IMG/VR virus record: IMGVR_UViG_3300032665_000082
Coordinates: 1 to 40,167 of that record
DNA: 40,167 nt
Source of the DNA: a virus
Strand: one strand, 5' to 3'
How positions within the stretch are numbered: position 1 is the first letter of the stretch; each line of letters opens with the position of its first letter. The position numbers and the translations under genes are program-made. Shown here piece by piece: positions 1 through 35,700 of the stretch. The notes beneath the pieces are model-generated. The model worked only from the letters and a program-made list of their open reading frames with translations, made no database searches and was not told the DNA's origin.

Positions 1-255
1 CATAACGTTTGGATAGAAGCAGATGAAACAGGTGTTAGCGTTACTGTCTATACTCAACAAAAAACAAAGTGGTGGGTACTTAATCGTTGGCAAAAGATTT
101 GGACGTTGTTAACTAAAGGTTACATCGAAGTTGAATCTAATCTTATTATGGGAGAACAGCAAGCATTTAATTATGCTCATACGCTTTTGAGTGCTGTTGA
201 AGACGTAGAAAAATTCAAAGAGGAACGAGATGCAAAACGCCAAACAAATAACTGA
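1..255 (+). CDS. Unknown phage protein, 5' end cut by window
   Basis: Frame 1 is open from the first base to a TGA at 253-255, giving at least 84 residues; the start is outside the window. The visible part is rich in Trp and charged residues (KWWVLNRWQKIW near residue 22) and ends in a Lys/Arg/Glu-rich tail. I do not recognise a catalytic motif. It overlaps the next gene by 26 bases, which suggests translational coupling in the same operon. The function is unknown; similar small proteins occur among T4-like phages, but that is a memory-based impression. Confidence 0.7.
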   Translation, partial: HNVWIEADETGVSVTVYTQQKTKWWVLNRWQKIWTLLTKGYIEVESNLIMGEQQAFNYAHTLLSAVEDVEKFKEERDAKRQTNN

Positions 256-460
256 CGAATTAATTTATCGCATGAAAACTACAGACCTAAATAAGTTTGA
301 GATTAAACGCGAAGTCGGACTTAATTGGTTGCCTAGCGGTACAGTTCCATTTGATATTAGTGCTAGTAAAGGAATTGCTACATTTACAGTATGGGCAGAC
401 AGTATTCAAGATGCCGAAGATCAAGTTTCACAATTTTTAGAGAAAGACGAAGATGAGTAA
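230..460 (+). CDS. Small acidic unknown protein (76 aa)
   Basis: This is an ATG-started 76-residue ORF inside a tightly packed right-facing operon. It overlaps the preceding gene by 26 bases, and its TAA at 458-460 overlaps the ATG (453) of the truncated queE by 8 bases. The AGAGGAACG upstream of 230 supplies a purine-rich Shine-Dalgarno-like region. The C-terminus is very acidic (EKDEDE). No domain is recognised. Its position shows that it was originally translated directly ahead of queE, before the endonuclease insertion. Confidence 0.75.
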   Translation: MQNAKQITDELIYRMKTTDLNKFEIKREVGLNWLPSGTVPFDISASKGIATFTVWADSIQDAEDQVSQFLEKDEDE

Positions 461-527
461 ATTAAAAGTAGCTGAATTGTTTTATTCAATTCAAGGAGAA
501 GGACGTTACATGGGTGTACCGTTCTAA
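453..527 (+). pseudogene. queE: Truncated 5' end of queE (remnant upstream of insertion)
   Basis: The ATG at 453 opens a 24-codon reading frame ending in TAA 525-527. Codons 1-23 (MSKLKVAELFYSIQGEGRYM then GVP) match the first 23 residues of the complete queE at 2220 in 21 positions, with L/I and V/I at the other two. At the DNA level only 45 of 69 bases agree, because 17 of the 19 identical non-Met residues use different codons. Homology stops after Pro23, where foreign sequence begins. I read this as the ancestral queE start, cut off by insertion of the homing endonuclege block. It lies in the same frame as the endonuclease ORF at 543, one stop codon and five codons away. Confidence 0.85.
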
Positions 528-542
528 TTCTGCTTAACATCG

Positions 543-1532
543 ATGATAAATTGGCCCGTAAAATTTGTAGAAAGCAAATATAGCAAGTGGTATAATAACC
601 TTATACACAAAGCACAACTACGAGGTCCGATACAGGGATATAAAGAAACACATCATATTATTCCTCGTAGTTTTGGAGGCGATAATATCAAATCAAACGT
701 CGTTCAACTAACTGCCCGAGAACATTACATTGCTCACGCATTGTTATGGAAAATGAAGTTTGAAGGCATATACGGTAGCAAAATGGCATTTGCGTTTAAT
801 ACATTCATTAACAAAATGACTACTAAGGAACGCGGCGTAAATCATACCTATACAATTTCCAGTAGGATTTATGAAACATTTAGAACACACTATTCTCAAA
901 TGTTAAAAGAGAAGTATGCCAGAGAAGGCGGAACTTGGGTCGGACGAAAACACTCAGAAGAATCTAAAAAGAAGATTGGCGAGAAAAGTAAGTTAAAAGA
1001 GTTTAAGAAAGGTCCCGAAAATCCTAACTGGGGCAAAAAACTCAAAATGACTGCGGACGGCACTAAGAGAAAAAAAGAGGCCGCATTAGCACGATGGGCT
1101 GACCCAGAATACAAAGAAATGATGAAGACCAAACGGCGAGCATTTTTAGAAACTCCGGAAGGCAAATCACTATTACAAAAACAGGCAGATTCAAGAAGAG
1201 GCGTTAAACGCGATCCTGCTATAATGGAAAAATGTGCGGCGGCAAAACGTGGGAAAAAAGAACACGAAATTTATTCTGCTGAAACAATATTAAAAAGAAA
1301 AGAAGCATTAAAAAATAGAGTCGTATCTGATGAAGCAAAAGAAAAAATTCGTCAAGGGGCATTAAGAGGGTGTAAGATGCCCAAATCCGATAACTGGAAA
1401 AAACAAATGAGTGAGCGAATGACTGGAATTGTTCGTCCTACTAAATCGTGCGAACATTGTGGTAAAATTGCGGTTGTATCGAACTACAATAGATGGCACG
1501 GAGATAATTGTAAAACATTAAAGGAACTCTAA
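543..1532 (+). CDS. HNH homing endonuclease (329 aa)
   Basis: This is a probable free-standing HNH-family homing endonuclease that would cut an uninterrupted allele and spread by double-strand-break repair. Residues about 36-70 carry the phage HNH signature, THHIIPRSFGGDN followed by VVQLTAREHYIAHALL. The middle is very Lys/Arg-rich with repeated EESKKKIG- and EKCAAAKRGKK-like segments, resembling the DNA-contacting NUMOD repeats of this family. The C-terminus has a zinc-finger-like CEHCGK...NYNRWHGDNCK. No clear Shine-Dalgarno precedes the ATG at 543. The frame is the same as that of the truncated queE ending 15 bases upstream, so termination-reinitiation coupling is plausible. Activity and target are not shown by sequence; position suggests queE codons 20-25 as the target. 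Confidence 0.85.
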   Translation: MINWPVKFVESKYSKWYNNLIHKAQLRGPIQGYKETHHIIPRSFGGDNIKSNVVQLTAREHYIAHALLWKMKFEGIYGSKMAFAFNTFINKMTTKERGVNHTYTISSRIYETFRTHYSQMLKEKYAREGGTWVGRKHSEESKKKIGEKSKLKEFKKGPENPNWGKKLKMTADGTKRKKEAALARWADPEYKEMMKTKRRAFLETPEGKSLLQKQADSRRGVKRDPAIMEKCAAAKRGKKEHEIYSAETILKRKEALKNRVVSDEAKEKIRQGALRGCKMPKSDNWKKQMSERMTGIVRPTKSCEHCGKIAVVSNYNRWHGDNCKTLKEL

Positions 1533-1546
1533 ATGCGGTGGCTTTT

Positions 1547-1578
1547 AACCCTTAACACATAAATAAGTGTGGAGGGTT
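1547..1578 (+). promoter_or_regulatory. RBS-sequestering hairpin with late-promoter-like loop
   Basis: AACCCTTAACAC (1547-1558) pairs with GTGTGGAGGGTT (1567-1578) with one A-G mismatch and one G-U pair, closing an ATAAATAA loop. The 3' arm contains the strong Shine-Dalgarno GGAGGG (1571-1576) for the ATG at 1583. The box CATAAATA (1558-1565), close to the T4 late promoter TATAAATA, occupies the loop. This matches the known architecture in front of T4 I-TevI: read-through early transcripts fold and hide the ribosome site, whereas a late transcript starting inside the hairpin lacks the 5' arm. The structure is seen; regulation is inferred. Confidence 0.7.
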
Positions 1579-1582
1579 TAAG

Positions 1583-2233
1583 ATGAACTACTTGATGATT
1601 AAAAAATGTATGAACACCGGGCTCAAATATCTGTGTAAAACAAGTGGTAAGAAAAATCCGTATCTATACACAGGCTCCGGAGTTAGATGGTTAAATCACA
1701 TTAAGAAACATAAGTCGCATATCATAACTTGTATAATAGGTGAATATGCTACTAAAGAAGAATTACAAGAAGCAGGGCTGTATTATTCCAAATTATACAA
1801 TGTAGTAGATGATTATACCTGGGCAAATCTAACAGAAGAAAAGGGCGATGGTGGTTTAGTAGGAACTGGACAGTTAGGTAAAACTTGGAAAATTAAAGAC
1901 ACATCCAATATGAATAAACCAAAAACTAAAACGGATGCTTGGTATGAAGGTAAGAAAAAAACTGCCGGTAGGAACAACTACCAATTCAAAGGACAAATAA
2001 AAACGCCTTGGGGTATTTTTGATACGGGATTGGATGCTATTACAGAAGGCAAGAGATTGCGAGATTTAGGCAATATAGAAGTAATAACGGACGGTAATAC
2101 TCTTCGAAAGTATTTACAATCGTTAGATAATGTGTTAAACTTACAAGGTAGGCGAACTCCTAAAAACTGGAGAGGTAAAACGCCAAGAGAATTAGGTTTT
2201 GAAATAATAAAGGATACAAATGTCAAAGATTAA
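1583..2233 (+). CDS. Putative homing endonuclease (216 aa)
   Basis: The 216-residue protein has features of a phage putative homing endonuclease family: YLYTGSGVRWLNHIKKHKS near residues 27-45, and LYYSKLYNVVDDYTWANL followed by EEKGDGG near 66-90. The basic C-terminal half probably contacts DNA. I cannot assign the nuclease fold with certainty (a GIY-YIG-like or EDxHD-like family are candidates). Its GGAGGG ribosome site lies in a hairpin that may silence early translation. The last 14 bases overlap the start of the complete queE, so endonuclease and the recoded queE 5' end look like one unit. The SD for queE (AAAGGA, 2209-2214) lies inside this gene. Confidence 0.75.
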   Translation: MNYLMIKKCMNTGLKYLCKTSGKKNPYLYTGSGVRWLNHIKKHKSHIITCIIGEYATKEELQEAGLYYSKLYNVVDDYTWANLTEEKGDGGLVGTGQLGKTWKIKDTSNMNKPKTKTDAWYEGKKKTAGRNNYQFKGQIKTPWGIFDTGLDAITEGKRLRDLGNIEVITDGNTLRKYLQSLDNVLNLQGRRTPKNWRGKTPRELGFEIIKDTNVKD

Positions 2234-3071
2234 GATAGCGGAACTTTTCTACTCTATACAGGGCGAGGGTAGATATATGGGAGTACCTAGCGTGTTTCTT
2301 AGAACTTTTGGCTGCAATTTTTCTTGTAAGGGCTTCGGTATGCCACGTGGCAAACTTAGCACCGAAGCAGATGAAATTGCGGAAGTAAAACAGCATTTTA
2401 CAAAATACGAAGAATTGCCATTAGTAAGCACAGGCTGTGATAGCTATGCTAGTTGGCATCCTAGATTCAAAGATCTAAGTCCGATGTTAACTAGTAATGC
2501 TATTGCAGAACGTATTGTAGAAATACTACCATGGAAAGGTTGGCAAGATGAACACTTGGTTATCACCGGTGGAGAACCTTTGTTAGGTTGGCAACGTGCT
2601 TACCCAGACTTGCTGGATCATGTTTATATGAAACCGTTAAAAGAAATCACATTTGAAACTAACGGAACTCAAAAACTTACTCCAGAATTTAAAGAGTATT
2701 TACAAGAGTGGTCGTTAAGTGCTGGATTTAATAGAGGAATTACATTTTCCGTTAGTGCTAAACTAAGTTGTTCAGGAGAAAAGAGAGAAGAAGCAATTCG
2801 TCCCGATATTGTTTGTGAGTATCAAGAACTTGGTTATACATATTTAAAATTTGTAGTTGCAACAGAAGACGATGCATACGAAGCACTAGAAGTAATGGAC
2901 ATTTATCGCGCATACGGTTTTGAAGGTCCAGTATATCTAATGCCAGTAGGCGGAGTTGAAAGCGTCTATACACTGAATAACCGCAGGGTAGCAGAGTTGG
3001 CTATGAAGGCAGGCCTACGCTATAGTGATAGATTACAAGTGCCTTTATTTAAAAACGAATGGGGTACCTAA
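2220..3071 (+). CDS. queE: 7-carboxy-7-deazaguanine synthase QueE (radical SAM)
   Basis: QueE converts 6-carboxytetrahydropterin to 7-carboxy-7-deazaguanine in the preQ0/queuosine/deazapurine pathway, using S-adenosylmethionine and a 4Fe-4S cluster. The 283-residue protein begins with the typical FYSIQGEGRYMG substrate-binding region. Cys32 and Cys36 (GCNFSC) and Cys73 (STGCDSYASW) are the likely cluster ligands, spaced CX3CX36C instead of the usual CX3CX2C. TGGEP at 116-120 is the SAM-binding GGE motif. The start is ATG 2220 with AAAGGA six bases upstream, inside the preceding endonuclease gene. The first 23 codons are a recoded replacement of the remnant at 453. Possible roles are tRNA queuosine supply or 7-deazaguanine DNA modification; no other pathway gene is in the window. 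Confidence 0.9.
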   Translation: MSKIKIAELFYSIQGEGRYMGVPSVFLRTFGCNFSCKGFGMPRGKLSTEADEIAEVKQHFTKYEELPLVSTGCDSYASWHPRFKDLSPMLTSNAIAERIVEILPWKGWQDEHLVITGGEPLLGWQRAYPDLLDHVYMKPLKEITFETNGTQKLTPEFKEYLQEWSLSAGFNRGITFSVSAKLSCSGEKREEAIRPDIVCEYQELGYTYLKFVVATEDDAYEALEVMDIYRAYGFEGPVYLMPVGGVESVYTLNNRRVAELAMKAGLRYSDRLQVPLFKNEWGT

Positions 3072-3072
3072 A

Positions 3073-3225
3073 ATGTTCTTTTATTTTTGTCTCGCAGTTG
3101 GTTGGTTAATTATGTTGGTATTAATTTATGGCTTTTTACAAGGTCTTCCAAAAAATAACTGTACTGGTTTTTGCAGACAAGGAAGAGAATGTACATGTAA
3201 GGATACAAATGAAAAACTTAATTAA
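3073..3225 (+). CDS. Small membrane peptide with Cys-rich tail (50 aa)
   Basis: The ATG at 3073 follows the queE stop by one base and encodes 50 residues. Residues 1-24 are a single hydrophobic membrane segment (FCLAVGWLIMLVLIYGFL). The tail NNCTGFCRQGRECTCKD contains four cysteines (CX3CX5CXC), which could bind a metal or form disulphides. The frame is also open upstream of 3073 inside queE, but that part is a shadow. The gene overlaps the start of the next gene (3209) by 17 bases. Similar tiny membrane peptides with a C-x-C tail occur in T4-like phages, from memory; the function is unknown. Confidence 0.65.
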   Translation: MFFYFCLAVGWLIMLVLIYGFLQGLPKNNCTGFCRQGRECTCKDTNEKLN

Positions 3226-3658
3226 AAAAATATTCGGCATTGATAAAATCGAAGCCGCTAAAGCAAAAGCTGAAGAAGAACTAGAAATAGTTAAAGGAAT
3301 CAAACAGCGCCACGAAATGGAAGCTGTTGAGGCTGAAGAAAAAGCAGACCTTGCTAAAAAGACTCCAAAAGAACGTGCAACGATTCGTGGAGAGCCATAT
3401 GTGGCAGTTTTGGATACACACGTAAACAAAGATAATATTCGAAATGGCTTCTTTGAGCTTGACTGGAACCCAGAGTTTATTGTACAATTGAAACAAGCTG
3501 GATACGGTTTCGATGGAGATCCTGAAGAAGAGATAGTAGATCGCTGGTTCAGAGATTTGGCAAGAAACGTATTAGCCGACGAAGGCCAAGATACTAATCG
3601 CGGCATGGGTTTTATTAATGTAAGTAAACTAGGTAACGGAAAAGCATCTGTAGAATGA
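3209..3658 (+). CDS. Conserved unknown phage protein with coiled-coil N-terminus (149 aa)
   Basis: I chose ATG 3209 over an in-frame ATG at 3128, because 3209 has AAGGA six bases upstream and the earlier start would lie deep in the 50 aa gene. Residues about 11-55 (EAAKAKAEEELEIVKG, then EAVEAEEKADLAKK) form a charged helical or coiled-coil segment. The rest is a compact domain with the sequence GEPYVAVL, then GFFELDWNPEF and VDRWFRDLARNVL. No enzymatic motif is recognised. Similar proteins occur in T4-like cyanophages and pelagiphages, from memory. The stop overlaps the next start (ATGA, 3655-3658), so it is co-translated with the RNase H gene. Confidence 0.75.
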   Translation: MKNLIKKIFGIDKIEAAKAKAEEELEIVKGIKQRHEMEAVEAEEKADLAKKTPKERATIRGEPYVAVLDTHVNKDNIRNGFFELDWNPEFIVQLKQAGYGFDGDPEEEIVDRWFRDLARNVLADEGQDTNRGMGFINVSKLGNGKASVE

Positions 3659-4662
3659 CATATATTATAGTTGATACTGCTAACACGTTCTTTCGTGCTC
3701 GCCACGTAGTACAAGGCACCGCCGACATTAAACTCGGTATGGCATTTCATATCACTTTTAACAGCATTAAAAAAGCATGGCAAGACTTTGGCGGCACTCA
3801 TGTAGTATTCTGCCTTGAAGGTCGCTCTTGGCGTAAAGATGTCTATAAGCCTTATAAAGCAAATAGACAAGAAACTCGAGATGCAATGACTCAAAAACAA
3901 CAAGATGAAGATAAGTTATTTTGGGAAGCATTTGACGAGTTTAAAAACTTTATTACAGAAAAGACTAACGCTACTATTTTACAACATCCTAATTTAGAAG
4001 CAGATGATTTAATTGCAGGGTGGGTACAAGCTCATCCAGATGCCAAACACGTTATCATTTCAACAGATGGTGATTTTGCACAACTTATTAGCCCAAATGT
4101 AAGTCAGTATAATGGTGTAGGAGACTTACATATTACACACGAAGGTATTTTTGATGCCAAAGGTAAACCCGTTAAAGACAAAAAGACAGGCGAACCTAAG
4201 CCAGCGCAAGATCCAGAGTGGATGCTCTTCGAGAAATGTATGCGTGGTGATACCAGTGATAATGTCTTCTCAGCGTATCCAGGTGTGCGTACTAAAGGTT
4301 CTAAAAACAAAGTCGGTCTTACTGAAGCGTTCGAAGATCGTAAAGCCAAAGGATTTGCGTGGAACAATCTCATGCTTCAGAGGTGGACCGACCATAATGG
4401 TGTAGAACATAGAGTCTTAGAAGATTATCAACGTAATGTACAGTTATGTGATTTAACTGCACAACCTGACGACATCAAAGCTAAGATTCGAGAAACAATC
4501 GAAGCTAATGCAATTCCTAAGGAAGTTAGCCAAGTTGGTATCCGCATGCTAAAATTCTGTAATGCATGGGATATGAAAAAGATTGCTGATAACATTCAGC
4601 AATATGCAGAACCATTCCAAGCAAAATATCCACAAACAACATATATTCAAATAGAGGACTAA
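3655..4662 (+). CDS. rnh: RNase H / 5'-3' flap exonuclease (FEN family)
   Basis: This is the T4-type RNase H, which removes RNA primers and adjacent DNA from lagging-strand fragments during phage replication. In the 335-residue protein the PIN/FEN acidic metal-binding residues are visible: D7 (IIVDTAN), E55 (FCLEGR), the E115/D117/D118 cluster (LEADDLI) and D138/D140 (STDGDF). MRGDTSDN followed by YPGVRTKG is the helix-hairpin-helix and adjacent region that grips the substrate. YKPYKANR at 64-71 is the helical arch region. The length fits the family (about 300-340 aa). It starts in ATGA overlap with the upstream gene and is followed three bases later by another gene. Confidence 0.92.
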   Translation: MTYIIVDTANTFFRARHVVQGTADIKLGMAFHITFNSIKKAWQDFGGTHVVFCLEGRSWRKDVYKPYKANRQETRDAMTQKQQDEDKLFWEAFDEFKNFITEKTNATILQHPNLEADDLIAGWVQAHPDAKHVIISTDGDFAQLISPNVSQYNGVGDLHITHEGIFDAKGKPVKDKKTGEPKPAQDPEWMLFEKCMRGDTSDNVFSAYPGVRTKGSKNKVGLTEAFEDRKAKGFAWNNLMLQRWTDHNGVEHRVLEDYQRNVQLCDLTAQPDDIKAKIRETIEANAIPKEVSQVGIRMLKFCNAWDMKKIADNIQQYAEPFQAKYPQTTYIQIED

Positions 4663-4664
4663 AA

Positions 4665-4856
4665 ATGAGTAAGTTAGCAAAACTAGCAAAAGTAAACGAA
4701 AGCATCACTATCAATCGTTACGATAACGGTTGGATGGTTGAAATCGGCGGCCGTAATAAAAAGGACGATTGGGCTACTACAAAAAGTATCTGTAATACAG
4801 AAGAGGAAGTTATCGCTCTAATTAAAGAGTGGAACACCTTGCCATTAGATCAATAA
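4665..4856 (+). CDS. Small unknown protein (63 aa)
   Basis: The ATG at 4665, two bases after the exonuclease stop, is preceded by the Shine-Dalgarno-like AGAGGAC. The 63-residue product has a compact alpha/beta-like pattern with a conserved-looking ITINRYDNGWMVEIGG segment and a helical end, EEEVIALIKEWN. No known motif is seen. It is followed at ten bases by the next gene, with AAGGAG between them. Confidence 0.7.
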   Translation: MSKLAKLAKVNESITINRYDNGWMVEIGGRNKKDDWATTKSICNTEEEVIALIKEWNTLPLDQ

Positions 4857-4866
4857 GGAGATTGCC

Positions 4867-5370
4867 ATGGCAACCTGGACCGTTAGCACTTATTATAAAA
4901 AATCTTGTCAAGAAGTTGAAACATATCATCAGCGAAATGGTGACGGTAAAGTTACTGTAGTGAATGGATTTCGATATGGTGAATGGACTGTAGAAACTAC
5001 AGACGATAATCCTCCGGAGTTTGAATTTACAGAAGTTCCTGGTGGAGATGGCAAGAAAGACAGCATCAACATGCTAGACTGTGAAATTAATAATATTGAA
5101 AGTGTTGATCTTGTTGAAATGTTCGACGGAGGTTGCTGGTACGATATTGAATTCGAAGGTCTTACTGACGAAGAAGAAGAAGAAATTCAAGAATTTATTG
5201 ATGATAATAGTCCATACGATTTAGAAGAACGTGAGGATGATCCATGGTCACAAGGCGATACTGAATGGTGGATTTGGGGACCGATTGAAATTAAAAGCGA
5301 AGACGGTGAAACTGTGCGTATTATATGCGCAGATGCAGACGGCAACGTAGTAGATTTCGTCGAAGAATAA
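4867..5370 (+). CDS. Acidic unknown protein (167 aa)
   Basis: The ATG at 4867 has a strong Shine-Dalgarno AAGGAG at 4856-4861. The 167-residue product is strongly acidic, with TDEEEEEIQEFIDD near residues 101-114, and has Trp-rich stretches (DTEWWIWGPIEI). Such acidic phage proteins can be DNA mimics or inhibitors of host nucleic-acid enzymes, but nothing here proves it. Similar proteins occur in T4-like phages, from memory. It is the last gene before a late-promoter-like box. Confidence 0.75.
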   Translation: MATWTVSTYYKKSCQEVETYHQRNGDGKVTVVNGFRYGEWTVETTDDNPPEFEFTEVPGGDGKKDSINMLDCEINNIESVDLVEMFDGGCWYDIEFEGLTDEEEEEIQEFIDDNSPYDLEEREDDPWSQGDTEWWIWGPIEIKSEDGETVRIICADADGNVVDFVEE

Positions 5371-5372
5371 GA

Positions 5373-5381
5373 GATAAATAC
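5373..5381 (+). promoter_or_regulatory. T4-late-promoter-like box GATAAATAC
   Basis: GATAAATAC lies two bases after the stop of the 167 aa gene and 51 bases before the ATG at 5432. It differs from the T4 late consensus TATAAATA by one base. The identical nonamer occurs on the other strand at 18205-18213 ahead of a tail-fibre gene, which supports a real shared signal. It would start a transcript near 5386, at the beginning of the hairpin listed next. Confidence 0.5.
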
Positions 5382-5385
5382 ATAC

Positions 5386-5416
5386 ATTACTCGGGTGCCG
5401 TCAGGGCCCTTGTAAT
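5386..5416 (+). promoter_or_regulatory. Structured leader hairpin
   Basis: ATTAC (5386-5390) pairs with GTAAT (5412-5416). After a two-base internal loop, GGG (5393-5395) pairs with CCC (5407-5409) around an 11-base loop. The palindrome AGGGCCCT (5403-5410) offers an alternative fold. A clean AAGGAG Shine-Dalgarno follows at 5420-5425. No T-run follows the hairpin, so it is not an obvious terminator. It may stabilise the 5' end of the late transcript. Confidence 0.4.
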
Positions 5417-5431
5417 ATTAAGGAGAAAAAT

Positions 5432-5911
5432 ATGACAGTTATATACGCCAAGCCGATTGTGGATGGTAAGTTTTGGATTGTAGAACAAGACGGTTCTAAA
5501 GTCGCAACACTTCACAAAAAAGAAAATAACAAATTCGTACTGAGTAGCACTACAGGCGAAATTATGTTTAACAAAAAACAAGACTTAACTAAACAGTTTG
5601 GAGAAGGATTTTTCCTAACTAGTAACAAAGTTAAAGTTACACAAGCAGAACCAAATGAATGTCACGGATTTGCCACAAGTGTTCCTCCATACAATAGTAT
5701 GTACGATGTAAGACGTAAACTTCCATTGTTTACAAAGAGCTTGCAGAGTAAAAGTTTGTATTGTGCAGGTTACTATACTATTAAATTTAACAAAGGATGG
5801 GTTAAAAGTTTCTGTCCTAAAGTTATTACATTAGAACGTAACGAATACAAAGGCCCGTTTAAAACAGAATTTGAAATGAAACAGGTACTTGCTAATGCAA
5901 AATCAGATTAA
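5432..5911 (+). CDS. Unknown protein (159 aa)
   Basis: The ATG at 5432 is preceded by AAGGAG. The 159-residue product is basic and beta-rich, with an N-terminal segment of alternating hydrophobic residues (VIYAKPIVDGKFWIVEQDG). Two Cys/His positions lie in NECHGFATSVPP. A repeat-like C-terminal part has FNKGWVKSFCPKVITLERN. I do not recognise the family. It has its own late-promoter-like box and leader hairpin, and it overlaps the next gene by 17 bases. Confidence 0.75.
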   Translation: MTVIYAKPIVDGKFWIVEQDGSKVATLHKKENNKFVLSSTTGEIMFNKKQDLTKQFGEGFFLTSNKVKVTQAEPNECHGFATSVPPYNSMYDVRRKLPLFTKSLQSKSLYCAGYYTIKFNKGWVKSFCPKVITLERNEYKGPFKTEFEMKQVLANAKSD

Positions 5912-6140
5912 TTTAACACCGATTACACAACTTATACAGGTAATTCGAAGTGCTGAACTTACTCAACAAAAAGAAGTAAGAATACCTATTCAAACAGCCA
6001 GGTTGTTAAGTTTAGCACTTGCCGAAATACAAGATAAATTGTTACAAGATTACGAGAGCTTGTTCAATGAACTAAGAAATAGAGCAGATACCGAGGTAGT
6101 TACTGTTACTATGGATGGTGGCGGTTTCGAAGACAAATAA
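5895..6140 (+). CDS. Small helical unknown protein (81 aa)
   Basis: ATG 5895 is preferred over an in-frame TTG at 5889; CAGG at 5882-5885 can act as its ribosome site. The 81-residue product is mostly helical (TPITQLIQVIRSAELTQQKE, then ALAEIQDKLLQDYESLFNEL) with a short acidic tail. It overlaps the preceding gene by 17 bases. No function is recognised. Confidence 0.7.
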   Translation: MQNQINLTPITQLIQVIRSAELTQQKEVRIPIQTARLLSLALAEIQDKLLQDYESLFNELRNRADTEVVTVTMDGGGFEDK

Positions 6141-22411: not shown

Positions 22412-24073
22412 TTAATCCGTTCTTGCACCCTGAGTGATCCTTGGATAAGTAGGTCCTGTACCCCTAAAACCAAAATTTTGCTTAGGAAAAGTAGATCCTG
22501 TATGCATTAGTTTGTACAATGTAGTACCTATCGGAACACCTAAACCAGTGACTGCATCCCATCCGCTAGTAGTCTTGTAACCATTTACATAAACTGCATT
22601 TTCCCCTGAAGTAATATCAGTAAAAGCAGACGGATTGGCATAGAAGAACGTATTAGCAAACCCTAATCTGTTACCAGTAAGTTGATTAAGACGGGCAACC
22701 ATTCCAGCCATCAATGGACAAACTGCGCTAGTGCCGCCATATTGACTTCTTGTATTAGAATTTCCCCAATTAAATGTATAACCTGTGTTAGGATCTGCAT
22801 TTCCAGCAATGTCCGGAACACCCCTAACGGTCAATGTAGTAGCAGATCCACTAACACCCCCGGTTGAATATGTAGTATAAGTTAATCCAGATTGCCAAGA
22901 CTGTATCGATTGATACGTGCTCAGTCCGCCGCCTGAATCAGTCCAGGCAACTTCTGTAGATCTAGAACTTCCAGAAAGTTGTAACGATGTTCCGCCACAC
23001 GCTGTTACGTATCTGCTCGACGATGGATACAAAACTTCTGTAGTAGATTGACCCCATGTTGAGCCACTATCGCCGCTTGATACTAAAATTGTTATGCCCA
23101 ATGTTACTGCTTGTGCTAAAACATTATCAGTAGCACTGACGTAAGTTGAATTCCAATAAGATGTTTCTCCAGCACCCCAACTTGTACTAAGAACACTAGG
23201 GCTGTTAGTAGTATCGTGAATTGCTGTATTGAAATTATTATACCAATTAGACCCAGCTGTAGGGCTACTAGATCCTGCACCATAACCAAAATAAGTAACA
23301 TATCTAGCTTTTGGTGCTACTCCGGCGGCGCAGTAAATATCTAACATAACTTCAGGGGATCCGTTATTGTCGCCTGGGTTATTAGTTCCGCCGTCAGTTA
23401 ATACACTTGTAATTGTTGGATTAGATAACCCTAATGGAGAAAAACTTGATGTTAAATTACTAGTTGTCCAACCTCCTCCCCATTCCATAATTCCAACACA
23501 AACACCATATCCGTCACCGGCAGGAAAATTGTAAGCAGTAGCAACTTGTGGTGGAGTAAGACTCACCGCAGTTTGTGATATACTGCCATCATAAGGAACT
23601 GCTTCTCGACTAATAGTAACAGATAAATCAAGTCCTAACACATATTCAATAACAGTATCTAACACACTAGGAATATGCATTGTGCCATCGTAACTCATGT
23701 ATGATCTGTCGGCTATTGTAACAGTATTCAGTGTAATACCAAATGCAGAATTAATTTGTGAAACTGTTCCACTTAATTTTATAGTAGCACTTGGTGCATG
23801 GCTATCTACAATAGTAAAACCAGTTGCCGTAGCAAAATCAGATATGAGTGATATGTCAGTATCTAATGAATTAAATTGATTACAAAAATCAACATAAGAC
23901 AAAATTTTATTTGTACCAGCAATTACACCATCTGCATATTCAGTAATAGACATTGGCCTGCGGAGCATTATGCTGAAATTAATTACGTTTCCAAGATTTA
24001 CTGGAGCAACAGATGCTCCGGCAGGTATAGTTAGAGTACTATTTGATAACGCGACAGTTGGAGTTAAGTTCAT
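22412..24073 (-). CDS. S53 sedolisin (kumamolisin-type serine-carboxyl peptidase, 553 aa)
   Basis: This is a complete prokumamolisin-like protease. Residues about 30-160 match the activation prodomain (DSHAPSATIKLSGTVSQINS, then AFGITL). The catalytic domain follows LTPPQVATAYNFP near 172. The full S53 set is visible: E241 and D245 in PEVMLDI, oxyanion D335 in VSSGDSGS, and nucleophile S449 in YGGTSAVCP. The calcium-site region is DITSGENAVYVNGYKTTSGW followed by DAVTGLGVP (D486/D506). No signal peptide is visible. It begins one base after the stop of the 877 aa fibre gene, with poor Shine-Dalgarno, so coupling is likely. A virion or processing role is inferred from its place in the tail module. 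Confidence 0.92.
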   Translation of the reverse strand: MNLTPTVALSNSTLTIPAGASVAPVNLGNVINFSIMLRRPMSITEYADGVIAGTNKILSYVDFCNQFNSLDTDISLISDFATATGFTIVDSHAPSATIKLSGTVSQINSAFGITLNTVTIADRSYMSYDGTMHIPSVLDTVIEYVLGLDLSVTISREAVPYDGSISQTAVSLTPPQVATAYNFPAGDGYGVCVGIMEWGGGWTTSNLTSSFSPLGLSNPTITSVLTDGGTNNPGDNNGSPEVMLDIYCAAGVAPKARYVTYFGYGAGSSSPTAGSNWYNNFNTAIHDTTNSPSVLSTSWGAGETSYWNSTYVSATDNVLAQAVTLGITILVSSGDSGSTWGQSTTEVLYPSSSRYVTACGGTSLQLSGSSRSTEVAWTDSGGGLSTYQSIQSWQSGLTYTTYSTGGVSGSATTLTVRGVPDIAGNADPNTGYTFNWGNSNTRSQYGGTSAVCPLMAGMVARLNQLTGNRLGFANTFFYANPSAFTDITSGENAVYVNGYKTTSGWDAVTGLGVPIGTTLYKLMHTGSTFPKQNFGFRGTGPTYPRITQGARTD

Positions 24074-26709: not shown

Positions 26710-29700
26710 TTATGTTGTTCCTTGATCGAATGTTAAATTATCGCCATCAAATGTAAGATCTACGCTGTCTATTGTAGTCGATCCACTTGTGCTTGTTTGC
26801 TCGTATGCTGAATACCAAATGCCTGGTTCTGCTCTTAAAAATTCAGCAATAATTCCAGTATCGTATAGAATATCTATAGAGCTATCCCATGCTGTACCAG
26901 TATTTTTAATTACAGTTATTTGTGTGCCTTCTGTTAACAAATTAGTTAATGTTACCTTAGCTGTTGTTCCATCAACTGAAAAATCTGGAGCAAACGTTAC
27001 ATCACCTGCTGGACTGTACGGTGCGTTGTTTATGTTAAACACAGTATACCCTGTTTTCTTTAAACGAATATTTCCTATAAAGAATTTCCAAACTACGCTA
27101 GAAGCTATGTTTGTGTTAACTGTAGTAACAATATTTCCATTAATAGTTACAGTTGTAACTGGACTAAAGAATGTTGCGCCACTAATATGATTAGAAATAC
27201 ATCTATAAGTGTAACTTCCTACAGTTATTATTGTACCTACAGAGTAAGTTACACCGCTGGCCCACTCGGCTCCATCATTGTAGCCGCCTACGAACACTTC
27301 GATATCATTTACTGAATTTGGTACGAACGGTAAATCAACTATGTTAGTACCGTCGCTTGTTATTTGTTCAATAACTTGAGTATCATTGTACGGAATAGTT
27401 TCTGAAGTACCAATGTCTTGAACGTATGTGCCAGCAGTAACTACCTTATTAACTCCGGTGCCTAGTGTACCACGTCTCAATTGGCTTAATGTATTTCCAG
27501 ATATCTGGAAGTATTCGATACGTTCGCCGCGAATTTCCAAAACACCAGGTTTATTAGAAGCTGGGTTTGGTACATCAAATTTACTAGCATCTTCAACTAC
27601 AATACTAACGTCATTCCAATGCAAATCTTGTGCTAATGTTGTGCGTTTTGATAAACTTAAACGTTTATATGAAACACGATTCAACATGTCTTTAAATTGC
27701 ATATACGCAATGCCGGATGTTAAAATAATACTTCCAAATGTAATCACAGTCATTTGGTCATTTAATACCAAGTCTGTTGCCATTGTAATGCTTTGATGGT
27801 CATCGTTTACTTTATAATCAATGCCGGGCACAAGCAATGTTGAATTTTTTACTAGCCATACATAATCATCTGAAATAACAGATCTATCTAATCCTATCAA
27901 CCCACCAGTTAATGCTTGGTAAGAATAAAACTGTGGTGTGTTTGGTGTTAATGTTGCTGTAGTAGATACATTAACATCAGTGCGTTCTATATCTAATGAA
28001 TCGTGCTGATAAGAACTAATAACTTGTACCAAATGAGTATTATCATACGAGTGAGTAAAAGTAATAGTATTAGAAGATGGATTATAGAAATATGTCTCGC
28101 CAGATGTTATACTAACAATTAATTTTTGTCCAGAGTATTGTGTATAAATTGATTTATTAATTTTAACAGTAATACCACTAAGATCAACTATATAATCTTT
28201 TCCTTGTTCTAATATAGTATCTCCTACTAAAACTGCAATATTAGTAATAGGAACAGAATAAGGAACAAATTTTACCGAGTCAATTGTATAGTTTAATCTA
28301 TTACTACCGATAGTAAAATAACTATTGCTAGGGCCAGTAAGTATACTTTGATCTACACGAACAATCATGTTAGATTCGTTAGGCAATGCATTACCAATTG
28401 TATTTTGTAATGTATAAGTTAGATTACCATTAGTTGCTATAGTTTCTACTTTAGTAATTGCAAATGTTTGCGATGATCCAGAAACAATAATATAATTAAT
28501 TACACTGCCAAACATCGGTGCTGTGCCAAATCTTATTCCTATTGCGTTAGGTAATGCATAAGTGTTATCAGTTTTAAACAACGTTGCATTTGCAACTACA
28601 CCATCAACATAGATTAAACTGGTTGTAGGAGTTTGCCAAGTTGTATTTGTAATAAACTCAACAGTGTTGCCATCTCCTACAAAGTAATCAATATCTAAAA
28701 TGTTTGCACCACTAAATCCAATGCTAAACAAACTAATTTCTGAACCAATTGTTGGTGTGGTGTTGAATACAACTTCTGCTTTTTCGTAGTTGACAATATA
28801 GTCTGTTTTAAGAGTTTTAATATTTCCGTCAACCTTAACTATAACTGCTCCAGTACTATTAGGTTGCTGAGTCAATGCAAATGCTGTAGAAGAACCGTTT
28901 GCTACATAGTTGTCAACTTTAACAGAAGCTGATCCTGCGCCAGGCTTATCAAAAACTTTAATAGCCACAGTATCAACAACTTGACCTGGAACTACTTCTT
29001 CTGGTGCTCCGCTTGTGGTTGGAGTAACTAAATCATCGCCGTCTACAATAATATCATCGGCTAATAATCCAGTAGCTGTAGCATATACACCACTTAAGAA
29101 ATTGCCGCCATCTAATGATGTATCATAATCTTTTGATTGCGGTGCAATAGATCCATCGCTAGTGCTTTGTCTAATGATAAACGTATCGCCAGAATTAACA
29201 GTATATGTATTAGGTAATGTAACTGTTGCTGAAATACCGTCTGCTACTGGTGTTACCATAATAGCATTTTTATTAGTTGCTGACGAGGTTCCATTAAAAT
29301 CTAATGCGTCTATTTTTACAGGATTTGCAATACCCGCTTCTACTTTATAAATGTTCAATAGTGTGTTTGCTGATGGAACATATGGTAAAGTAAATGCATG
29401 TTCGTTTGCGCCTGCTACAACTTTATAATCTGTGTAGTTGTCATCATATTCATCCCATGTGTCTGAATAATAAGGCAAGCTATCCCAACCTAATGCTACT
29501 TGGAATCCAAGTCCATCGACTATTACACCACCGTAATCGATTCCAGTCATTAGCTGAGACAAGTCTTTGCCTAACATTCCAGATGTTGGATTGTAAAAAT
29601 ACTGGATTCGGTCATTTGCAGACAACAGTGATTCGTCAATGTTGTATGTTACTACAATACTACTCTTGTTTGCAGGTGCTGTAACAAATGTAATTGTGCC

Positions 29701-32700
29701 AGAATATTGTGTATATCCATTAGCTTTTGATGAAACAATGTTTAATACATATCCGTCTCTTAGAGCAGGAATGCCATTAACGGTAACTGTACTTTGTCCA
29801 ATTCTTACATCTGGGCCCCATATCAATGGAAACTGCACTCTAGATCCAGAGCCAGTAAATTTTTCAGTTTTTTGCAATTGAGTAATATAATATGACTGAT
29901 CAACCCTATCAAATTTAATACCCATCTGCATTGAACGAATTAGTCCGTTGCCAATAATTGCCGATGCTGTAGCAGCCGTGCCGCCTAGAGCAAGACCGCC
30001 ATCAATAGTAATCGTAGGAGCAGACAAATATCCACTTCCAGGAGTTAGCAACACAATTCTTCCTACTGTACCATTAGTAATGAATGCTCGCGCAGTTGCG
30101 CCAGAGCCACTATCACTGGTAATAACAACTTGTGGTTCTGTTACATAATTAGACCCTGCGTTAGTTAAAATTATGTCTGTTATATTAAACCCAACATTCT
30201 CTTCCCAGAATTTCCATGGGTAGTTTTGAATGTTAGCATCGCCTGTTGTTATACTTCCAGAAGATACATACGCATTGATAGTTGTTATACTTCCATTTTC
30301 GTATATTGGTTGCAAATCAAAGTCAGTGATAGGCAACTGTGCAAGATCTGTACCAGTATAATCATCGATGTATTCTCGAACATTAGTTCTGTATGGTTTA
30401 ACTTCGTTGACGAAATCTTCAAAATTACTTAGATTGTCAGGACGATATGTTACTGGCTGATCTAATCCGCCAACATTGTGTTGAGCTTTAACAAAACTAG
30501 TTTTGAATATCCAATCTACATATGGTTGTTCGCTGTGCGCATATCTTACACTATTAAAGAATAATTTCAAATATGAACCGGTTAATGTGTTTACAAAAAT
30601 ATCATTCTTTAAACTAGTTAATATTATTCTTAATTCAGCAGCCGCATATTGGTCATATCCCTCTGTATCAAAAGTGCTATTATCGAAACCTAGTTGAGTT
30701 CCAGTAGTTTGGTATAATGAAGAACTTAATTGTATTGTACCGTTTTGTATACCAATGACACTGTATGATTGTGTCCAGTCGACTGATGTAGAGTTTGCAT
30801 ATTTTTCTAGTAACAACCAGCCTCCGCTGTTAACTGTTCTTACTTTAACTATTTCGCCGATTGATACTGATATTGAATTTAAATCAACTATTGTAGCAAC
30901 TGAAAAATCTGCCGCTGTAAACTGACTAAATCCGGTAGAATACCAGTCTGCATAATTCCAGAATTTTCTCACATCATATGCTTGAGTTATTATTCTAGAC
31001 CAAATCTTAGTAGTAGGATCGTAAGAATATATACTCCAGTTACCTTCCGATTGGCTATCATTTTTAACTAACGCAGAATAACTTCTTACAACAAATACAG
31101 TATTGCTGTCGTAACCTTCTCCAGCAGATTCAATATCAACTCCAGTAATTTGTCCTTTAGAATTAATAATTGTTTTAATTACTGCACCTGTACCAGAACC
31201 AATTACCTCAACATATGGCGCAACTAGATATCCTTTACCAGAAGATTGAATAATAACTTGGGCAATTTTACCGTTAGTAGTCGATGGATCTACTAGAGTT
31301 AATGTTGGCATTGCAAAGTTTCCAACATTAGCATACACTAATTCTGCATCAGTATCAAAAGTTGTATCATATAATCCTAGTATTTCATTAGGAACAGGAT
31401 CGTAACTGTTTAACGAATCCATATTAATATTTTCAACGATTTGATTTTGCAATAACACTTGATTTGTTAAATCTATAAATTCTTTTAACGCTTCAAATCT
31501 ATTAACAAACATTCCTTGTCGAGGACGATTTTCAATACCGTAGCGTAATTTTGGAGGAAGTTTAGGATCTGGAACTACCCTACCTGCAAAATCTGATCCG
31601 CATAAACTATCAATCCATTTTGCTTCAATTGCTGGTGGAATATAAGTTGTTGGATCTTCGCTAATAATTTTCCAATGACTATGAACATTTTGATCTGTCT
31701 TGTCGATTAACCAGTATTCTACACTTAACACAACTTGTGTTTCATGTAAAAACTGTTTTGCATTTACTAAACTAAAGCTATCAAGTCCTGTTAATGCAAG
31801 GTATGTATAACCACTACCTCGTGGATTAGCAATTAGATTTGCAACATCCGCTGCCGCTAAATTTCTTCCCGGCACATTTGGAATAAATTTCTTGTTTTTA
31901 ACCCAGAAATAATATGTATTTTTAAATGACTGGGTAACTGTATTATATTTTTGTACAACTGTATATGCTGTATTTCCGTATAAACTTGTTCCACTTATGC
32001 CGGCAGCATTACCTGTAGGAGTGTCGGCCAAACTATCCCACACAGCAGGTAATTGATTATAAGATACCCATTCGTAAATATCAATGCTTGCGCCTTTAGC
32101 TAAGGTGTTCCAGTTTGTGTTTCTATAAACAGGATCATTTTCATAAACATTTAAAAATTTAGCAGTTCTTAAATCCCACCACAATGTTCCAACTTGATTT
32201 GCGTTCCATGCTGTGCCGCTATTGACATTAACAGTAGCATCTCCCACAGTATATGTTGCAGGATCATAAAATGCTTTATACTTTATTTCTTCCTCGGCAG
32301 GGCCTGCTATTTTTCCTTGAGCAGGATCTATTACATCTACATAAGTTAGTAATTCTCCGCTATCTTTATTGTACAAGAATGCTTTTTTAAGTTTCTTAAC
32401 ATCAGGTTTATCAATTTCTGTTTGGATCATGCTCCAAGTGAAAGATCCAACAGGCTTAGTATAATCATAAACTATACCAGATACTAACCCCCTATCAATT
32501 GCTTCTGGAGCACCAATTAAAATATTATTATTTCCTACGGCAATACCTGTACCGTATCCGTCTGCTATTACAGATTCTCCGCTAGGTATTGCCGCAGTTC
32601 CAGTACCTGTGCCTGAGCCTGTTGCAACAAACTCGACACCAACTTCATTTAAACTAGCACCAATTGATGTAAAATCTGTATTGCCTATTGAAAGAATAGC

Positions 32701-35700
32701 ATATCGATTACCTGGTATAAATGCTCCAGCTTTTACAACAGGATTTGATTTAGATAACGATTCACTGAATACCCAAGAAGTAGCATATCGATCGTAAACA
32801 TCCACACGACCTGCATTTGATTGATTCACTGAAAACGCTGTTGAGTCTTTGTCAAACGTTGTCGAATTGTTGTCGAACGTTGTTGTAATTAAAGAATCAC
32901 CATATAGACTATAAACAACTATAGTATCGCTATCATTCATAAACGACACTTTAGCACCAAATTGTCCATTTGTTTCTGGTTGATGAGGAATTAAACTTTC
33001 AGGTGTAATTGTATTATAAGATCCTGTTGTAGAATCATATGTATATACAGTAACGGTTCCTTGTCCGTGAATACTAGTACTTGCTTCGCTACTACCAACT
33101 ACGAAATAAGTTCCATCATAAGATAAATCAAAATCAACAGATGTGATAGAAAAACCAGTAAAATTATCAATAGTGTTTAGAACTAAATTCTTATATACAT
33201 TAATTTTTGCAACTGTAGTTGTGCCGGATGTGTATAATCCAGACACCGCAAGTGTTGAACTATCACCGCTTAATTTTACTTCTGTACCAAAATTTGTATA
33301 AGCATCAGATGGTGCTGTAATTGTAGAAGATAATTTATATGCCCATCCAACTACTGCAAATTTTATAATACCTGAAGGAGCACTATCAGGTGAACCGCTT
33401 AACAATAAAGTAGTAGAATTTATTACCGATTCCACAATTTGACCGCTAGTAAATCCTGTACCAATCACGTACATTCCAGCACGAATTCCAGTTGTACTAG
33501 TTACTGTTAATGTAGAATTTATACTTCCCACTGGGTTATAAGCAGAACTTGCTTGTATCACAGTGTTATATATTAAGTTGTAAACTGCGTTGGAACCTGG
33601 AGCACCGATGAATAGTTCGTTGGTGCCAAAAGCCACACTTGATCCAAAATATTCATTTGAACTTATATCATTGCTAAACACAGCAGGGCTAACAATAGTA
33701 TCTACTAATTGATAAATGTTATTCTTGTCTTTTTCATAAAGACTAACAACACCTTGTCCTTGCTGTCCTGCTTGATTTGACACCAATGTCCATTGTCCGT
33801 TTCCGCTATCTGGGGTTAACTGTGCTTGTTGTGTTACATACATTACGCCGGATGCAGTTGTTATGGGTACGTAGTTTGTCGAACTAGGTACTGCGGTAAT
33901 TGTAAACTGTGTTGAACTAACAATATTACCTACATAATATATTTCGCCTGCTGTTACTCCGCCAAACGTTGTTCCAGAAAAAACAATTTCGTAATTAGGT
34001 GCAAGTACAGATGTATCAGCAGTTGTTAGAAGATAACTTCCAGTGGTAGTATTAGTAACTGGTATTGTTACTTTACCATAAACTTTAGTAGTTGCTTGGT
34101 AAACATTGCTTTCATAAACTATCAATGTATTAGCTGGATATGTAACTGTAGGATCCCATGTTCCAAAATTATTAACCGGAACATAGTATACTGGTTTCCA
34201 GTATGCTGGATGACTCGATGGGTTTGATGAAACTGGAACCACTGATAATGCTTGGTAATATGCAATATTACTAATACTATTTCCAATAGATACAATTATG
34301 CCAGGTCCGTATACATTTGCAGAATTATATGTACCAAGGTAATTAGTTACAGCATACCCTGCTAACGGACTGCTAGTTGCTAACCATGAAGCATCTGAAC
34401 TGATATAAATTTGCGAAGCTACTGTATTGCTTGTATTAGGATTATTAGAAATTGTATATGTTGAATATACATTAGATGAAAATGCGGCTTGACTTATAGC
34501 AATACTAACGCCTGGTGTTACAAAAGTAATTTGTGTATTAGCAGGTATTCCTTCTCCTGCAATAGACGATCCTACCATGTTTGATGACGCAGTAGGCATT
34601 ATAACAATTCTACTGTTAATTGTAGTAGTACCAATTGTCAATGTAATAGCATTGGCAGCAATATATGGAGGTTGAATTACTTGTCTCTGAGTCCAGTTTA
34701 GAGAAATTCCAACTTTATCATATGTAATAACTTCGCCAAATGATGTACCAACAGCGGCTAGTGTACCGTCTGTGCTCATTGCAATAGATTGGCCGAATCT
34801 TAATTGATTCTGCGGTGCCGAATTGTTTACATTTATTTTTGCATAAACAGGATTATATTTCCATACAGCCCACTTGCCGTCTCCTCTATCATCTGTCCAA
34901 ATTAATTCGCTTGGATTTAATTTTTTTGTTAGAACTGTATCAAGTGTATTAATAGAACTTGTTCGTTGACTTAATAGTGCATACACAACTAATTCGTTAG
35001 TTTGTGTAAATGGCGTCGGAAACGCAGTAATATTTGGAGCCGAAACGGTAATTGTATTCAATGTAACACTAGTTACTTGATAAAAACCATTTAATAAAGA
35101 AACTTGGTCTAGACCAATATATGATCCTACTGTAATGTTTGTTATATTTTCTGCTGTAAGGGTTAATACTCCTTTAGCAAAGCTAATATTTGTTAACTTT
35201 AAATGTATATCAGTATATCTATAAACATTCCAACTTGGACCTTCAAACGCTACCCAGATGTATGCTCCCTCAGTGAATGTTCTAATGTCATAAGTTGTAA
35301 TCTCTGACAAATAACCTAAACTTAAAAACACATCTGTCGCAGTTACATACCCAGCGTCTCTTAAGAATGGAGAATAATTAGCTAGAATTGGCCACGGTTT
35401 TGAATTATATCCAACTGGTGGCAAATACACATTGCTTGGAAGTTGTTGTATAATAAATGTATTAAGAAGGCCTTGATCAATTGTATTTCCTAATTGAAAA
35501 CCTTGAGGATTTAATCTAAACTTTGCTTCATCTAAAATAAATTCAATGTTTTCAAATGCTCTACTAGCACCGTATTGACCTAAACGTACAGCCCATTCTT
35601 CATAGAATGTTAAACTTTCTTCTCCGAGATTAGTAAGAACACCGAATAATCTATTCAATACGTTTTGTGTTCCTTTGTCTCGAATCATTCCTTGATAAAA

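Follow-up and report, generated by a model that had tools for sequence, protein, structure and literature searches.

In a virus stretch of 40,167 nucleotides (nt) (IMG/VR record IMGVR_UViG_3300032665_000082, positions 1 to 40,167; the whole stretch is the window below), the first codons of queE are present twice, with two endonuclease genes between the copies. Comparisons with related phages indicate that the endonuclease genes entered the first codons of a resident queE, cut off its 5' end and left one full queE. The incoming unit brought a queE 5' end that is foreign and respelled; the ribosome-binding site and start codon of this end came with it and overlap the endonuclease stop. We consider it likely that this is a mobile homing unit carrying its own rescue 5' end, which lacks the target. 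Judging from sequence comparison, the respelled copy of the start keeps queE whole and probably hides it from the putative cutter. The full gene (2220-3071) was assigned to QueE by its match to phrog_2076 (E value, 1.3e-52).

The 23-codon start occurs at 453-521 (ATG at 453), as a remnant, and at 2220-2288, as the beginning of the full gene. As counted in an earlier note on this DNA, made from the sequence alone, base identity between the two copies is 45 of 69 and residue identity 21 of 23, different codons are used at 17 of the 19 identical non-Met residues, and the open reading frame of the second endonuclease (1583-2233) has 14 nt in common with the new start. The earlier suspicion that this exceeds drift also held, given that only 10.0 of the 19 codons would be expected to differ at saturation under the phage's own codon usage (P for 17 or more, ca. 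4e-4; 5e-4 with pooled queE codon usage). Beyond the junction, the frame of the remnant runs on for a single codon (TTC) and is closed by TAA (525-527).

In order to place the two copies, we used the contig L002, in which queE is uninterrupted (L-numbers denote the gathered queE and endonuclease loci). L002 and the window were identical at 449 of the 450 nt before the remnant, at only 158 of 240 nt over queE codons 1-80 and at 612 of 612 nt from codon 81 to the stop. The remnant, which carries 0 of 11 respelled codons, was closer to this uninterrupted allele (64/69) than was the new copy (45/69), as the earlier note had anticipated. Because L002 is nearly identical on both sides, diverges only over codons 1-80 and has a remnant-type end, the window is an L002-like phage that received the insert and the 5' part of queE together, the remnant being the resident end. 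Among residues shared by the two phages, codons differed at 16 of 18 in codons 1-23 (9.6 expected), at 26 of 41 in codons 24-80 (22.6 expected, that is, saturated) and at 0 of 193 in codons 81-283. The divergence is therefore not even along queE but confined to a 5' tract; replacement stops at codon 80, with respelling beyond saturation only in its first part. The replaced tract is thus longer than the earlier note had it (ca. 240 nt rather than 69) and only partly synonymous, with amino acid changes in codons 24-80.

The proposal that the unit brought its own queE 5' end was borne out by all four sister pairs (window/L002, L247/L335, L250/L283 and D527/D482). For L250, which has an endonuclease VII-type gene, and the uninserted L283, the differences per 60 nt were 22, 14, 0, 0, 0, 0, 0, 0, 1, 0, 0, 0, 0 and 8, with 36 differences in the first ca. 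110 nt, one in the next 600 and more at the 3' end. The remnant of L247, also of the endonuclease VII type, matched the uninserted L335 at 44 of 45 positions and its own new copy at 28 of 45. Among the Vibrio phages (six of the listed records were fetched), D486, D527, K566 and K567 carry a relative of the window's GIY-type gene (34% over residues 3-167), which overlaps queE by 10 nt in the three fetched carriers (D486, D527 and K566) and lies between genes, with no remnant left. Between the Vibrio isolates D527, with the endonuclease, and D482, without it, there were 19 differences; all fell in the first ca. 110 nt of queE, the remainder of which was identical. Because the tract ends abruptly in resident queE, its right edge was made by homologous recombination; such abrupt ends in the sister pairs mark transfer of flanking sequence from carrier to recipient, as in free-standing homing. 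Among near-identical pairs (at least 94% identity over nt 301-700), the first 90 nt were less than 85% identical in 4 of 4 pairs differing in the presence of an endonuclease versus 7 of 47 other pairs (Fisher P, 0.0013, for pairs that are not independent, L247 being counted twice). Separately, the Vibrio isolates D482 and D483 (L224/L227) had 18 differences in the last 64 nt compared of queE and were nearly identical before, which is a second conversion-like tract, at the 3' end of the gene; this end differs between L250 and L283 as well.

Carriers of the main group were then compared with 56 native alleles, expressing synonymous codon matches relative to the saturation expectation. The carrier-native match was 0.60 of this expectation in codons 2-23, 0.71 in codons 24-32 and 1.03 in codons 33-45, while native alleles among themselves gave 1.22 to 1.30. 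Since drift cannot go below saturation on average, such a match is unlike neutral drift, and the respelling beyond saturation is confined to approximately codons 2-32 of one widespread haplotype. In 25 of the 31 loci computed, the respelled codons were at or below the 7.5th percentile of the 23-codon windows of their own genome, the remaining six being five distant GIY carriers and one mosaic. The codon habit of a donor is thus unlikely as the source of the respelling and was rejected for the main haplotype, given that L091, which has no endonuclease, is also among the genomes with atypical respelled codons. Another candidate, a generic weak codon preference at gene starts, is present in native queE too but is smaller.

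HNH and endonuclease VII-type units have fixed entry points in queE, each seen in several remnant haplotypes. In six such haplotypes, the HNH units (left end, TTCTAATTCT...) begin at one and the same base after codon 23. In a seventh (L230-232) they begin two bases farther on, and the junction of an eighth (L236-239) is eroded and holds a stop. Endonuclease VII-type units begin after codon 15 in three haplotypes, the L250/L251 remnant being shorter, while GIY-only insertions leave ends after ca. codon 29 (L209), codon 11 (L200) and codon 17 of a longer start (L201), with no clear remnant in L189, L199 and L206. Because one junction has different resident haplotypes to its left, units have moved between lineages, each remnant staying the recipient's own. 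All six HNH-type remnants tested were native (0-2 of 11 respelled codons), and the 17 carriers scored all had AGR at codon 18, with 4-11 respelled codons.

The respelled block also occurs without the endonuclease. For instance, L008 and L009 differ in queE by a 40-nt block (nt 48-87, respelled in L008) and one base far downstream, while in the 460 nt upstream a single base sets them apart. L103, L089, L094 and L013 are mosaics with other breakpoints, and in L096, L116 and L179 a full respelled start follows the last bases of the GIY-type gene, the gene itself being gone. Phages with the 2220-type end and no visible endonuclease, of a kind that the earlier note had named as speaking against its reading, do exist (L079, L088, L096, L108 and L112) and in part count against it, but the closest relatives are remnant-type. 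Given these relatives, the block swap between L008 and L009 and the GIY-gene tails kept in L096, L116 and L179, we read respelled ends without an endonuclease as probable endonuclease loss or gene conversion, which would be conversion to, or survival of, a resistant target.

The window unit is one of many, and at least two unrelated endonuclease types are joined to the queE start. After de-duplication, an endonuclease was joined to the start in 30 of 238 distinct queE genes, which is no population frequency: the sample was enriched by endonuclease queries, two locus searches keeping the best 80 each of at least 600 stretches, ranked by protein identity, and the others selecting for the respelled pattern or for endonucleases. 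The 30 comprised 16 GIY, 6 endonuclease VII-type, 5 GIY plus HNH and 3 HNH cases. In the set gathered by protein identity only, codon 18 was CGN in 70 of 79 usable loci and AGR in 9, and two loci (L001 and L014) had an endonuclease gene or its tail at the queE start. Relatives of the GIY-type gene were at a queE start in 32 of 40 loci (the other 8 match the N-terminal domain only), those of the HNH gene were linked to queE in 11 of 14 loci, with 3 not linked, and the endonuclease VII-type gene was linked in 10 of 10. Among the HNH-only loci, L158 and L138 have truncated GIY genes, and L230-232 and L236-239 have the last bases of the GIY gene. The HNH-only loci examined thus derive from HNH plus GIY by deletion, and therefore two types, GIY and endonuclease VII, are directly joined to the start. 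Their C termini (NVKD/NVKN) read through the same start codon in both types.

These two types also have similar expression signals. The motif ATAAATA lies 13-40 nt before the endonuclease start in 15 of 15 GIY-type, endonuclease VII-type and Vibrio units examined (at 24-25 nt in 12), mostly inside a hairpin loop, the hairpin pairing with the ribosome-binding site; the two HNH starts lack the motif. In the window hairpin, we take the motif (1559-1565) to be T4 late-promoter-like. Since it is found in the ribosome-binding-site hairpin of both types although their proteins are unrelated, the data suggest a shared regulatory cassette. The start of queE lies inside the end of the endonuclease gene, after AAAGGA. 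A ribosome-binding-site hairpin with a late-promoter-like element is described for I-TevI, SegB and the MobE of Aeh1 in the available part of PMC2988022.

With regard to the endonucleases themselves (Table 1), the HNH gene matched a homing endonuclease family (phrog_655; E value, 1.6e-41) and T4 MobE (51.5% over 98 amino acids, residues 13-110), the Pfam matches to HNH and NUMOD3 being below the cut-off; thus, an HNH domain goes together with homing endonuclease relatives. The GIY-type gene had no PHROG match and no GIY-YIG Pfam match, and a sequence search of solved structures gave only two chance matches, to protease 2A. Its structure was predicted with a predicted local distance difference test score (pLDDT) of 69 and a predicted template modeling score (pTM) of 0.41. 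Foldseek alone returned no match at an E value of 0.001 or better, but by VIA-align the N-terminal domain was matched best by I-TevI (Z, 7.5 over 84 residues), with GIY-YIG enzymes in all of the first nine rows; PD-T4-3, also among the rows, presumably has this fold. The gene is accordingly modeled as having the GIY-YIG catalytic fold. The L212 protein, which matches PF01541, has its C-terminal part in common with the window gene: at 4001-4642, L212 encodes a canonical-type GIY-YIG catalytic half and a C-terminal half matching the window gene, which represents domain swapping at the same locus. In the endonuclease VII-type carrier L249, a second copy of the GIY-type N-terminal domain (5639-5376; 54% over residues 3-91) lies downstream of queE on the opposite strand. 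No relatives of the GIY-type gene were confirmed in bacterial genome contigs.

Table 1. Features of the queE locus in the window
Feature	Position	Strand	Remarks
Upstream resident gene	230..460	+	End overlaps the remnant start by 8 nt, likewise in uninserted L002; from the open reading frame list and 449/450 identity over 3-452
queE remnant	453..527	+	23 native codons (453-521), then insert-derived TTC TAA
Left junction of the insert, TTCTAATTCTGCTTAACAT...	522..522	.	Common to HNH units in other remnant haplotypes
MobE-like HNH homing endonuclease	543..1532	+	phrog_655, T4 MobE; Pfam HNH and NUMOD3 sub-threshold
Hairpin covering the ribosome-binding site of the second endonuclease	1547..1578	+	z, -2.44; ATAAATA in loop at 1559-1565
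GIY-YIG-type endonuclease	1583..2233	+	Final 14 nt shared with the start of queE (2220-2233)
Replacement 5' part of queE, codons 1-80	2220..2459	+	Codons 2-23 respelled beyond saturation
Resident part of queE	2460..3071	+	612/612 identity with uninserted L002

Elsewhere in the window, an open reading frame amid tail genes (22412-24073, minus strand) looks by eye like a sedolisin (S53) peptidase, and a single open reading frame of 4288 codons (26710-39576, minus strand) takes up ca. one-third of the window. In L006-L009 and L209, queE is preceded, at a distance of a few genes, by a gene that looks by eye like GTP cyclohydrolase I (folE), and for this reason queE probably belongs to a 7-deazaguanine DNA-modification set.

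The proposed mechanism is as follows. The endonuclease would cut native queE near the junction, and the break would be repaired from a carrier phage, with the upstream DNA and the remnant serving as the left arm and downstream queE as the right arm. The respelled end, lacking the target, would leave the carrier immune and with a working QueE, and its loss of the target would account for native remnants beside respelled ends in carriers. Repair without transfer of the endonuclease, or its later loss, would spread the respelled block alone as a resistance allele. Whether all this amounts to a natural home-and-rescue drive, in which unrelated endonuclease families converged on one gene start, rescue 5' ends were selected past saturation against cutting or use in repair, and endonuclease-free blocks spread as resistance alleles, we regard as an even bet.

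Several points weigh against this reading. The signal beyond saturation comes essentially from one haplotype, so that the effective n is near 1, L250/L283 (P, 0.34) and L247/L335 (P, 0.24) being merely saturated and the five distant GIY-type carriers having ordinary codons. Native queE itself has a somewhat weaker codon preference in codons 2-23 (median of 0.65 versus 0.71; lower in 79% of genes), and codon 18 is circular because the native class was defined by CGN there. Phages such as the five listed above have the respelled end and no visible endonuclease, and the HNH-only units inspected closely retain the GIY gene's tail, so that the replacement end may not belong to HNH on its own.

The strongest competitor, which we hold to be possible but doubtful, is ordinary intronless homing, in which a free-standing endonuclease beside queE brings in a diverged ortholog's 5' end by co-conversion, the respelling being the donor's neutral divergence, immunity a by-product and the remnant an accident of an imprecise left junction. 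T4 free-standing endonucleases do adjoin the genes that they cut (PMC2988022, available part), the Vibrio gene lies between genes without a remnant, and codons 24-80 of the tract, like two other carriers, are only saturated. However, precise junctions are repeated in several lineages, for both HNH and endonuclease VII-type units, the match below saturation is limited to codons 2-32, which neutral drift would not lead us to expect, and the respelled codons, unlike codons 24-80, are atypical for the genomes of the carriers.

It seems very improbable that codon 23 holds a self-splicing intron or an intein and that the second copy serves as a spare start. HNH and GIY-YIG endonucleases are common intron passengers, and the insertion point is fixed, but an Rfam scan (cmscan) of 1-6000 found no intron family, group I core included, at E values of up to 5 (only a sub-threshold CrcZ match), and the remnant frame stops at once, at the TAA at 525; by both counts the endonucleases are free-standing. 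The tract ends vary among carriers, moreover, and an intron would not make uninserted relatives differ over the 5' tract, as they do. A local duplication of the 5' end followed by divergence of one copy would explain two copies with nearly the same protein, yet is contradicted, and hardly credible, since a phage that is identical on both flanks shows 240 nt of divergence from the active copy, whose spelling is common to other carriers and lineages. An assembly chimera, conceivable for metagenomic contigs, is just as hard to credit, with the window junction present in two further IMG data sets (contigs of 3300031884 and 3300032677), the architecture recurring in many contigs and the replaced tract recurring in deposited phage isolate genomes.

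If the home-and-rescue reading is true, phages evolved in replicate the design of engineered gene drives, and hundreds of natural alleles record target sites, resistance alleles and loss. Questions about gene drives, such as resistance by conversion or one rescue co-opted by several cutters, would become testable in fast, culturable phages, and sequences already exist for Vibrio isolates that have the unit and for others that lack it. At the start of a gene, synonymous divergence could then mark past endonuclease attack.

The closest known systems are mobile endonuclease open reading frames of fungal mitochondria, which replace gene ends in Allomyces atp6 and in Glomus atp6, atp9, cox2 and nad3; the Glomus atp6 copies are 63.5% identical in DNA and 91% in protein, and the native end matches uninserted relatives (PMC3630166, available part). 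The earlier note's analogy with the 3' replacement in Allomyces atp6 agrees with this source. As there, an endonuclease sits in the gene, a foreign end restores the frame, and the native end is kept as an unused duplicate, here a remnant matching uninserted relatives. Unlike the fungal cases, as far as that part of the source describes them, the end replaced is the 5' rather than the 3' end, in phages rather than mitochondria, with a start codon and a ribosome-binding site, at least two unrelated endonuclease types share one gene start, and the respelled block moves alone. The queE unit thus works like the fungal elements, but we do not file it as one of them.

Like the free-standing seg and mob endonucleases of T4-like phages, as covered by the available part of PMC2988022, the unit has a MobE-like HNH and a GIY-YIG gene, no intron, a place beside the presumed target, transferred flanking sequence and a ribosome-binding-site hairpin. 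Unlike them, it entered the coding sequence of the target at fixed points and kept a dead remnant, and it supplies a new 5' end, whereas mobE of Aeh1 leaves nrdA split. F-CphI of cyanophage S-PM2 is a phage homing endonuclease with an endonuclease VII motif, a feature it has in common with the L014 unit, but the L014 unit is linked to queE, a link that is absent from the available portion of PMC6083498. Our literature search, with subscription journals mostly outside it, found no endonuclease-linked 5' replacement in phages.

Engineered drives use a respelled rescue to spare the host gene and avoid self-cutting. In the synthetic home-and-rescue drive HomeR, the rescue is reportedly a recoded, cut-proof copy. 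Both HomeR, as presented in the available part of PMC7968924, and the queE units combine a cutter with a rescue of the cut gene, the cutting being putative in the latter. HomeR, however, is engineered, CRISPR-based and made for insects, whereas the queE units are natural, use protein endonucleases and reside in phages.

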